Shown here piece after piece: positions 40,679 through 43,665 of a stretch of 64,000 bases of DNA. Position numbers and translations under genes: made by a program. Below the pieces are notes generated by a model that saw only the letters and a list, made by a program, of their open reading frames with translations, made no database searches and was not told where the DNA came from. The DNA comes from Roseobacter denitrificans OCh 114 (GTDB taxonomy: Bacteria; Pseudomonadota; Alphaproteobacteria; Rhodobacterales; Rhodobacteraceae): assembly GCF_000014045.1 (NCBI RefSeq), contig NC_008209.1, positions 1-64,000 on the forward strand, written 5' to 3'. Numbering within the stretch: the first letter of the stretch is position 1; each line of letters starts with the position of its first letter.

Positions 40679-41467
40679 TCAAAGGTCAAATTGCGCAAAA
40701 ACCGGGGCGTGATCACTGGGCTTTTCCCAGCCCCGCGCACCGCGAAGGATGCGACTGTCGTGACCCGCTGCGGCGATGTCCGATGTAGCCCAGACGTGAT
40801 CCAGCCGCCGCCCCTTGTCCGCCGCATCCCAGTCCGCAGCGCGGTAGGACCACCAGCTATAGAGCCTGCCTTCGGGAATGTCCTGCCGGGTGATATCGAC
40901 CCAGCCACCGGCGTCTTGCGTTTGCGCCAGATGCTCAACCTCGATGGGCGTGTGGCTGACCACCTTGAGCAGCTTTTTGTGATCCCAGACATCGTCTTCG
41001 CGCGGGGCGATGTTCAAATCACCCACAAGGATTGATTTTTCGGGCTTTTGCGCATGAAACCAGTCGCGCATTTCCGTCAGATAATCGAGTTTCTGACCGA
41101 ATTTTTCGTTCACTTCCCGGTCCGCCACGTCTCCGCCCGCTGGCACATAGAAATTATGCACCGTCACGCCGTTTTCCAACCGGCCGGCAATATGGCGCGC
41201 GTGCCCCAAACCCGCGAAGTCTTCGGCGGCGGCTTCCTGCATCGGGATTTTCGAAAGGATGGCCACCCCGTTGTACCCTTTTTGCCCGCGTGCCACGACA
41301 TGCCCGTATCCTGCGGCGGCGAAAGCCTCCAATGGCATCTTGTCGACCGGGCTTTTGCATTCCTGCAAACACAGGACATCGGGCAATTCCTCGGTCATGA
41401 GTTTCAGCACCAGAGCTTCGCGCAACCGCACAGAATTGATGTTCCAGGTTGCCAACGAGAACGCCAT
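40679..41467 (-). CDS. xthA: Exodeoxyribonuclease III
   Basis: A 262-residue AP endonuclease/3'-5' exonuclease of base-excision repair. Family signatures are clear: the N-terminal FSLATWNINSVR, the metal-binding LCLQECK, VGDLNIAPREDDVWD in the middle and SDHAPVFAQF at the end. The length is standard. It begins 122 bp beyond the terminator of the putative small RNA at 41589-41662, so it must have its own promoter. Confidence 0.93.
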   Translation of the reverse strand: MAFSLATWNINSVRLREALVLKLMTEELPDVLCLQECKSPVDKMPLEAFAAAGYGHVVARGQKGYNGVAILSKIPMQEAAAEDFAGLGHARHIAGRLENGVTVHNFYVPAGGDVADREVNEKFGQKLDYLTEMRDWFHAQKPEKSILVGDLNIAPREDDVWDHKKLLKVVSHTPIEVEHLAQTQDAGGWVDITRQDIPEGRLYSWWSYRAADWDAADKGRRLDHVWATSDIAAAGHDSRILRGARGWEKPSDHAPVFAQFDL

Positions 41468-41588
41468 AGAAAAACTCCGCCATCTAGATTCTGCGGCACC
41501 CTAAACACTGCACGCCGCTGGCACCATGCCCAACCGTGACGGATCGTGTTTTCTTTTCCGGGGGAGGGGTGCAACCTGTGGAGCGGGC

Positions 41589-41616
41589 AAAAAAAGACCG
41601 GGCATAAAGCCCGGCC
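41589..41616 (-). terminator. Intrinsic terminator (minus strand)
   Basis: On the minus strand a CCGGGC / GCCCGG stem (plus coordinates 41598-41603 and 41609-41614, loop of five) is followed by seven consecutive Ts (41589-41595). This is a textbook intrinsic terminator. It ends either the response regulator transcript or, more interestingly, the putative small RNA started by the FNR box. Confidence 0.85.
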
Positions 41617-41662
41617 AAGTCCAACAGGGAGGTGCATGTCATGACCCGGACATGCGCGGGTT
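41589..41662 (-). ncRNA. Putative FNR-controlled small RNA
   Basis: A perfect FNR box centred at 41703.5 predicts, for class II spacing, a start near 41662 on the minus strand, with a weak -10 (TACACC) at 41669-41674 in the right place. The transcript would then run about 74 nt to a seven-U terminator at 41589. It would contain a first hairpin (CATGTC paired with GACATG), a single-stranded CACCUCCCUGUUGGAC segment complementary to ribosome binding sites, and the terminator stem. No credible ORF fits. The alternative is a simple 3' UTR of the response regulator gene, which ends at 41728. Inference from sequence alone. Confidence 0.5.
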
Positions 41663-41696
41663 CTCTATGGTGTAGCAAAGTATGGTTAACAGCGTC

Positions 41697-41710
41697 TTGA
41701 TTCATATCAA
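41697..41710 (-). promoter_or_regulatory. Perfect FNR/Crp-family (FnrL-type) binding site
   Basis: The 14-mer reads TTGATATGAATCAA on the minus strand, an exact match to the FNR consensus TTGAT-N4-ATCAA with all ten fixed bases. Such a match is expected far less than once in 64 kb by chance. It lies 17 bp after the response regulator stop codon, with no annotated gene within 220 bp downstream on either strand, but with a terminator-ended short sequence immediately following. Confidence 0.75.
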
Positions 41711-41727
41711 AAACGGTAAGAAATCTC

Positions 41728-42414
41728 TTACGCCATTAGTCTGTATCCACCGGATTCTGTCACAAGCAGCCGTGCATTCGAAGGATCGGGTTCGATTTTC
41801 TGACGCAGGCGGTAAATATGCGTCTCCAACGTATGTGTCGTGACCCCGGCGTTATACCCCCAGACCTCGTGCAAAAGCACATCGCGTGCCACAACACCTT
41901 CGGTCGAGCGGTAGAGGAACTTCAGAATATTGGTTTCCTTTTCCGTCAGGCGGATTTTCTTTTCATCTTCGGTGATCAGCGTCTTCATCGCGGGCTTGAA
42001 CGTATAGGGTCCAAGCTGGAACACCGCGTCTTCGGACTGCTCGTGCTGTCTGAGCTGGGCACGAATCCGTGCCAGAAGCACCGGAAACTTGAAGGGTTTG
42101 CTGACATAATCATTCGCGCCTGCATCCAGCCCCAGAATCGTATCGGCATCGCTGTCGTGCCCGGTCAACATCAGGATCGGGCTTTTCACGCCCTGTTTGC
42201 GCATCAAACGGCATAATTCGCGACCGTCCGTATCCGGCAGTCCCACGTCAAGGATCACCAAGTCATACAACGCCTCCTTGGCCCGCACCATCGCATCCGC
42301 ACCATTCGCCGCCTCAAAGACATCAAAGTCTTCGGTCATGATCAACTGTTCGCTCAGCGCATCTCGCAGATCATCATCATCATCCACCAACAGGATTTTC
42401 TTTAACTGTGCCAT
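41728..42414 (-). CDS. OmpR/PhoB-family response regulator (CenR-like)
   Basis: A 228-residue two-component regulator. The receiver domain (5-120) has acidic residues DDDDD at 11-15, phospho-acceptor Asp56 in ILDVGLP and the KPF lysine near 108. The winged-helix DNA-binding domain (about 130-228) ends THTLETHIYRLRQKIEPD. From general resemblance to Rhodobacterales sequences it may be CenR, an essential regulator of envelope genes, but I could not verify this. No histidine kinase is adjacent. The start at 42414 has CGGAGG 7 bases upstream. Confidence 0.88.
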   Translation of the reverse strand: MAQLKKILLVDDDDDLRDALSEQLIMTEDFDVFEAANGADAMVRAKEALYDLVILDVGLPDTDGRELCRLMRKQGVKSPILMLTGHDSDADTILGLDAGANDYVSKPFKFPVLLARIRAQLRQHEQSEDAVFQLGPYTFKPAMKTLITEDEKKIRLTEKETNILKFLYRSTEGVVARDVLLHEVWGYNAGVTTHTLETHIYRLRQKIEPDPSNARLLVTESGGYRLMA

Positions 42415-42576
42415 CTGACGCCTCCGTTTCACTTCCTAAGACTTGTGCATTTCACAGCGATCTCACAAGCTTATGCGCAACCGCCTCACGGCCTCGTGTT
42501 ACAAAGCCGTCCAAATGTTTCAATTCCGTCCGAATTACCCTAGATCGAGGCATGAAATGTCAGGCATTGTAACATC

Positions 42577-43665
42577 ATGAGCTTCTCACCCGACCAAAAT
42601 GAATTGATAGCCCGCGCGCGCGCGGACCTGCGGATGGGCGTACCCGTCGTGATTGACGGCGCGACGCCACTGCTTGCAGCCCCGGTGGAAACGCTCAATG
42701 CCGCGCGGCTGGGTGATGTGATGGCCCTGTCGCAAGATGCGGTTCTGGTCATTACCGCACGCCGCGCCGCGACGCTCAAGGCGGCCGCCTATGATGGCGA
42801 TCTGGCCCGGGTGAAACTGTCCCCCGATGCGACACTGGCCTGGGTGAACGGGGTCGCGGACCCGGCGGGTGATCTGATGAACCCGATGAAAGGGCCTCTG
42901 GCCTGCGCGCGCGGTGGGGACGCCGAAACGCACCGCTTTGCCATTCAACTGGCGAAAGCCGCGCGCTTGTTGCCAGCGGTTGTCTGCGCCCCGGTGGACA
43001 ATGCGCCGGCCTTTGCGCAGGCGCATAACCTCGTGTGTCTCGCGGCGCAAAGCGGACAGGCGATGCTGGATGCCTCAAGCCCCTTGCACGCGGTGATCAG
43101 CGCGCGCCTGCCGATGGAGGTATCAGAGGCCGGGCGATTGCATGTGTTCCGGCCCGAAGACGGCGGTGAAGAGCATTACGCCATTGAAATCGGCAGGCCG
43201 GATCGCGCCGCCCCGCTGCTGACAAGGCTGCATTCCGCCTGTTTCACCGGGGATCTGATGGGATCGCTCAAATGCGACTGCGGTCCACAGTTGCGCGCCG
43301 CCCTCGCGCAGATGGGAGCGGAGGGGAACGGCGTGCTTCTGTATATGAACCAGGAAGGGCGCGGCATTGGTCTGGCCAATAAAATGCGGGCATATTCCTT
43401 GCAGGATCAAGGGTTTGACACGGTCGAAGCCAACCACCGGCTCGGGTTTGAGGATGACGAACGCGACTTTCGCCTCGGCGCCGCAATCCTGAAATCCATG
43501 GGGTTTTCCAAGGCGCGGCTGCTGACGAACAACCCGCGCAAGGTCGCCATGATGTGCGAAAACGGCATCGACGTGACCGAACGTGTGCCGCTTCATGTGG
43601 GCGAGAACGCGCATAATCACGCCTATCTCGCGACGAAAGTCGCCAAATCGGGCCATCTGAAATGA
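42577..43665 (+). CDS. ribA: GTP cyclohydrolase II with long N-terminal extension
   Basis: A 362-residue protein whose C-terminal half is GTP cyclohydrolase II, the first step of riboflavin synthesis. The zinc cysteines are in CFTGDLMGSLKCDCG (around 223, 234, 236), the substrate-loop motif is NQEGRGIGL, and LLTNNPRKV and VPLHVG follow. The first 180 residues are not part of the catalytic core; by length and position they correspond to the DHBP synthase half of RibBA fusions, but lack its acidic catalytic motif and are probably a degenerate domain. It overlaps the L,D-transpeptidase gene by 4 bases. Confidence 0.88.
   Translation: MSFSPDQNELIARARADLRMGVPVVIDGATPLLAAPVETLNAARLGDVMALSQDAVLVITARRAATLKAAAYDGDLARVKLSPDATLAWVNGVADPAGDLMNPMKGPLACARGGDAETHRFAIQLAKAARLLPAVVCAPVDNAPAFAQAHNLVCLAAQSGQAMLDASSPLHAVISARLPMEVSEAGRLHVFRPEDGGEEHYAIEIGRPDRAAPLLTRLHSACFTGDLMGSLKCDCGPQLRAALAQMGAEGNGVLLYMNQEGRGIGLANKMRAYSLQDQGFDTVEANHRLGFEDDERDFRLGAAILKSMGFSKARLLTNNPRKVAMMCENGIDVTERVPLHVGENAHNHAYLATKVAKSGHLK

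Follow-up and report, generated by a model that had tools for sequence, protein, structure and literature searches.

Which RNA is served by the perfect FNR box on the minus strand of the window (the 64,000-nt stretch of DNA analysed), and does this RNA have a promoter of its own? The original prediction answered with a small RNA behind a response-regulator gene, thought to be undescribed. The small RNA and its place proved right, its novelty did not: positions 41590-41662(-) match SorX (Rfam RF02784) over the full length of the model (1-73/73) with 96.3 bits and an E value of 6.9e-23 at a gathering cut-off of 46.6. The candidate therefore belongs to an already named family, in Rhodobacter sphaeroides called RSs2461, near which an FnrL ChIP-seq site has been reported (in passages of PMC4263372). 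Besides SorX, no family was found at gathering scores in the Rfam scan of the whole 64,000-nt window.

The SorX region has the parts of a compact small RNA gene. The RNA (41590..41662, minus strand), with 41662 as predicted primary transcript start, has a fold with a z-score of −2.83 (41588-41662). It comprises a 5′ hairpin GCATGTC/GACATGC (41634..41655, minus strand), a loop segment ACCTCCCTGTTGGA (41620..41633, minus strand), which is invariant in alignment A1 of 12 sequences (only the RNA part was used, since rows G012, G017 and G115 are without the upstream part), and an intrinsic terminator with a T run (41589..41616, minus strand), the stem of which (41596-41616) has 8 bp, 7 of them G-C pairs. 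The terminator had been placed 74 nt downstream of the predicted start; it is present, but the 74 nt lead to the end of the T run rather than to the beginning of the terminator. SorX lies directly downstream of an OmpR-type response regulator gene (41728..42414, minus strand; Pfam Response_reg and Trans_reg_C), as expected for a member of the family, and this gene is the positional counterpart of RSP_0847 in R. sphaeroides. That the regulator is CenR-like, as had been suggested, could not be confirmed: it has a receiver and a Trans_reg_C domain, and among the 25 best NCBIfam families listed not one passes its curated cut-off. Downstream of SorX follows a gene of the endonuclease/exonuclease/phosphatase family (40679..41467, minus strand; Pfam), labelled xthA-like by us; by eye, the same gene order including the xthA-like gene is found in Ruegeria pomeroyi SZCCDBG043.

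Reviews routinely use SorX to illustrate how a small RNA is released from the 3′ end of an mRNA in response to oxidative stress (SorX passages of PMC9438474). As described in the SorX passages of PMC6238624, SorX (RSs2461) of R. sphaeroides is a 75-nt RNA that is cut by RNase E from the 3′UTR of the mRNA of an OmpR-type regulator, RSP_0847; RNase E converts a 116-nt precursor (5′ end 2,598,182) to the 75-nt SorX (5′ end 2,598,224). The same passages of the review ascribe the first cut of pre-SorX to an unknown nuclease and report that SorX represses potA (PMC9438474); binding of SorX to Hfq is stated there and in the SorX passages of PMC5036791. Co-transcription with the regulator gene from an RpoHI/II promoter is given in the relevant part of PMC3320616. 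Two small RNAs whose putative promoter region holds an FnrL ChIP-seq site were listed in 2014, and RSs2461 is one of them; according to the same passages, a regulatory influence of this site could not be established (PMC4263372). The SorX of the window shares with that of R. sphaeroides the sequence, the fold, the terminator and the position after an OmpR-type regulator gene. Whereas the latter is described as cut from a 3′UTR transcribed from the RpoHI/II promoter, the former has a perfect FNR box and with it an apparent promoter of its own, the start of which falls on the 5′ end of the mature RNA.

On the minus strand the regulator gene is followed by the FNR box TTGATATGAATCAA (41697..41710), a spacer of exactly 22 nt, the −10-like hexamer TACACC (41669..41674), the predicted start 41662 and the terminator ending at 41589. 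As originally predicted, the box is perfect; it is the sole perfect TTGATN4ATCAA in the window (expected 0.04; at least one in 4 of 100 shuffles). The combination of box, 22 nt and TA likewise occurs once (expected 0.05; reached in 5 of 100 shuffles). The centre of the box is 41.5 nt upstream of the predicted start and the −10 element at −12, which is the geometry of a class II FnrL promoter and bears out the spacing that had been claimed; the same geometry is conserved across other genera, as described below. TACACC matches TATAAT in 3 of 6 positions, and a generic sigma-70 scan of 41500-42600 returned no promoter.

We consider it quite likely that the SorX gene has its own FnrL-activated class II promoter. 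At low oxygen FnrL would bind to TTGATATGAATCAA and contact RNA polymerase at −41.5; transcription from 41662 would then yield mature SorX of about 74 nt directly as the primary transcript, which ends at the terminator. To this extent the earlier interpretation as an oxygen-responsive small RNA is partly supported. SorX would then work like FnrS of Escherichia coli, a small RNA activated by FNR at low oxygen, with which RSs2461 shares no sequence similarity (both in passages of PMC4263372). By the Rfam scan only SorX, and not FnrS, reaches its gathering score in the window.

FnrL is encoded in the genome (equivalog NF045989, 456.7 bits at a cut-off of 300), its translation displaying the N-terminal cysteines, and there are 33 TTGAYN4RTCAA sites in the genome versus 3 for the reversed pattern. 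Within the family FnrL is over the cut-off in 339 of 394 members. A strong FnrL match (E values as read by us) was seen in 44 of 45 genomes with the box versus 99 of 106 others (Fisher p 0.44); with FnrL nearly universal, this is a weak test of an association.

A real promoter could also have as its main activator another protein of the Crp/Fnr family, either a Dnr-type NO sensor or a CrpK-like protein, which we regard as unlikely though not negligible. There are 10 HTH_Crp_2 matches over the cut-off in the genome, of which only FnrL has been assigned and not all need be Crp/Fnr proteins. The Dnr-type site of Dinoroseobacter shibae is also written TTGAT-N4-ATCAA, and in R. sphaeroides CrpK and FnrL share site determinants (passages of PMC4263372). 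Against another activator stand the presence of FnrL in the genome and the box itself, which is identical to the canonical FnrL site TTGAT-N4-ATCAA as written in the consulted part of PMC2908626.

The evidence for an own FnrL-activated promoter that goes beyond the single locus comes from comparison of genomes. SorX loci were taken from two genome searches, 19 from the window's genus and 152 from other genomes, each of another genus; the latter are the higher-scoring matches among the matches listed and no random draw, G070, which was listed twice, having been left out. One of the 152 loci was dropped as too short, so that 151 were counted. A strict box was defined as TTGAN6TCAA ending 52-90 nt before the conserved SorX loop. 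Such a box is present in 44 of the 151 other genera among the matches listed, whereas dinucleotide shuffles of the same 151 loci give 0.15 on average and never more than 2. Within the genus of the window 5 of 19 genomes have it; records of Ruegeria pomeroyi SZCCDBG043 and Phaeobacter sp. CECT 5382 also carry the box. A strict box within 110 nt is absent in the majority, 106 of the 151 other genera among the matches listed, which counts against an own promoter as the general rule. Conservation in relatives was the check by which the original prediction was to be judged: the 44 genera speak in its favour, the absence of the box in 14 of the 19 genomes of its own genus against it, and the claim is not refuted.

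TA is found exactly 22 nt downstream of the box in 40 of 49 loci, the next best of 26 offsets tested reaching 10 of 49; on the opposite side of the palindrome TA at 22 nt occurs in 0 of 50 loci (distance limit widened to 110 nt). When a box with at most one mismatch and TA at +22 were both required, 49 of 170 loci qualified versus 0.16 in shuffles. Over the box loci TATAAT is matched on average in 3.10 positions for offset 20 and in 2.84 for offset 22, so that the exact −10 hexamer is not fixed.

A second sample consisted of named genome records picked by box and loop and blind to the −10 element. It comprised at least 118 stretches, from which 2 duplicates were removed and 7 stretches titled as other phyla set apart, leaving 109. 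Among the matches listed, 82 of these 109 distinct stretches have TA at +22 (next best offset 18). With the duplicates kept, the C-terminus of the regulator and its stop are located upstream in 106 of 111 stretches among the matches listed, and 83 of these 106 have TA at +22. The 7 stretches from other phyla among the matches listed are chance pattern matches; 3 of them have TA at +22 and 4 have it at +30. They include two pairs of near-copies and are no clean negative control. In an even draw of 394 family members, made irrespective of the SorX score, box and SorX-type loop were found together in 68, a count of pattern matches that need not all lie at the SorX locus, some of them having other stems; no match to the reversed pattern of box plus loop was seen in the rows of this draw.

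Where the covariance-model start is at a known place (17 box loci), the predicted start, 41.5 nt away from the centre of the box, can be compared with the 5′ end of the SorX model. The two coincide in 10 of the 17 loci, that of the window among them, and lie within 2 nt of each other in 13; in the other 4 the predicted start is 7-16 nt upstream. This looks like a widely conserved FnrL class II promoter with its start at the 5′ end of mature SorX.

How does this agree with the processing described for R. sphaeroides? On a rival view SorX of the window would be only a 3′UTR product, freed by RNase E from a response-regulator transcript that extends into the terminator, and the box would be coincidental or serve another purpose. 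Such processing is published for R. sphaeroides (SorX passages of PMC6238624 and PMC9438474). The C-terminus and stop of the regulator are located upstream in 164 of 171 SorX loci. In 30 of 114 loci without the box the SorX loop starts within 75 nt of the regulator stop, which leaves no space for such a promoter outside the gene. This short spacing is found in 0 of 50 box loci, however, and the −10 signature at +22 and the coincidence of the start sites also argue against processing as the only source, which we therefore hold to be quite improbable. The best reading is one of two sources: read-through and processing, by which the same SorX would additionally be released from the mRNA 3′ end of the regulator gene upstream, in the manner known from R. 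sphaeroides, plus an own FnrL-activated promoter where the box exists.

A tree built from 33 regulator genes, 19 belonging to the window's genus and 14 selected from other genera, cannot be reconciled with fewer than 4 gains or losses of the box, and well-supported branches demand 3 of these; the five genomes of the window's genus that have the box stand together on a weakly supported fork. Evidently the box has come and gone. A bolder proposal, to which we give even chances, is that FnrL directly controls the SorX of the roseobacters, which would be mainly an independent small RNA induced at low oxygen and a counterpart of FnrS by convergence. Two unrelated routes would then lead to one RNA with coinciding 5′ ends, the promoter coming and going inside a 3′UTR.

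Bound FnrL might instead be a roadblock to, or a repressor of, SorX or read-through transcription. In R. sphaeroides some targets are given as lowered by FnrL (Table 2 of PMC2908626), but the class II position of the box with a −10 element at activating spacing makes this very unlikely. A chance palindrome near a small RNA, as the one perfect site in 4 of 100 shuffled windows might suggest, is contradicted by a conservation far above that in shuffles and by the fixed spacing, and can practically be dismissed.

The 14 members of the window's genus without the box (L001, L003-L005, L009-L013, L015, L017 and L019-L021) have another motif in common. By eye, TTAACCA (12 of 14) or TTAACCG (2 of 14) lies about 50-70 nt before SorX, shortly followed by TATAT in 9 of 14; TTAAC is found at the corresponding place in the box carriers of the genus, too. 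The TTAACC-type motif could be another promoter or a CtrA-like half-site. Eight Tateyamaria records (L145, L160, L176, L193, L198, L199, L226 and L245) have a SorX with an enlarged, different 5′ hairpin; they were selected for the upstream box, and 6 of the 8 are without TA at +22.

In the R. sphaeroides genome (G093) SorX is found at the published coordinates. An imperfect box, TTGCGTGAGATCAA, at 2,598,148-2,598,161 overlaps the stop of the regulator gene and is farther from SorX than the range counted above; TATAAA follows 22 nt after it. This predicted −10 element (2,598,184-2,598,189) implies by arithmetic a start at about 2,598,196, which is neither of the two published 5′ ends (2,598,182 and 2,598,224) and thereby speaks against the own promoter. 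The mismatch means that the R. sphaeroides promoter is inactive under the published conditions, or that its transcript is quickly trimmed to 75 nt, or that it is unused. The 5′ end of the 116-nt pre-SorX, 2,598,182, was considered as start of the FnrL promoter and rejected, since the predicted −10 TATAAA lies downstream of it. The FnrL site of R. sphaeroides hemN is TTGCGcaggATCAA (Table 2 of PMC2908626); FnrL sites can thus include a half-site resembling the one found at SorX in R. sphaeroides.

SorX itself is already known; what appears to be new is the anatomy of the promoter. No description of an own SorX promoter was found in the titles and abstract openings of the SorX/FnrL and SorX/transcription-start literature, a coverage outside which lies the original paper on SorX (Peng et al. 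2016), and none is given in the SorX passages of PMC6238624, PMC8625941, PMC8307010 and PMC5036791. If an FnrL promoter operates here, low oxygen and oxidative stress would feed the same SorX RNA by two routes: the molecule which in R. sphaeroides is supplied under oxidative stress by heat-shock-type sigma factors via processing of a 3′UTR would be the same as the one driven by FnrL. It would also point to a role for the FnrL site reported near the SorX of R. sphaeroides and provide a case for small RNA genes gaining and losing promoters inside 3′UTRs.

Where targets of SorX and SorY are known, they are transporter mRNAs: potA (SorX passages of PMC9438474) and takP, which is involved in malate import (passages of PMC6238624, PMC8307010 and PMC5036791). 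The loop of SorX, ACCUCCCUGUUGGA, looks like an anti-ribosome-binding-site element, and its segment ACCTCCCTGTTGGA is likely the target-pairing and anti-Shine-Dalgarno region. SorX would pair via CCUCCCUGUUGGA with the ribosome-binding sites of transporter mRNAs. When the own genome was searched with the loop (up to 2 mismatches), 38 matches were obtained versus 11 for the reversed control; the 38 include SorX itself and a SorY-like gene, and 28 of the other 36 were inspected. Two candidate sites were picked because a long open frame starts at a plausible spacing. One (L339, G000:C1:2210354-2210367(+)) is complementary just before the start of a gene for a DctP-type TRAP solute-binding protein (Pfam), with −22.0 kcal/mol; the other (L335, G000:C1:1254265-1254278(-)) lies just before the start of a gene that by eye resembles those of ABC-type solute-binding proteins, with −19.8 kcal/mol. 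As target sites of SorX or SorY, picked from a short list by complementarity, the two are only suggestive.

The SorY-like gene (L312/L274, G000:C1:3099710-3099769(+)) scores 55.9 bits with the SorX model and 45.6 bits with the SorY model, the cut-off of which is 111. The loop segment of the window's SorX is also present in this gene. SorY (RF02651) and the SorX of the window share the loop CTCCCTGTTGGACT and the type of terminator. On the same chromosome the SorY-like gene occupies another locus, where it follows an open frame resembling that of a LysR-type regulator, whereas SorX of the window follows an OmpR-type regulator gene and has the FNR box; in the 170 nt upstream of the loop of the SorY-like gene no TTGAN6TCAA box was seen. 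A third, weak SorX-like match (L319, G000:C1:2505379-2505443(-)) has 27.5 bits, below the cut-off; it has the loop CTCCCTGTTAGACT and a terminator-like end, and a similar copy is found in G012.
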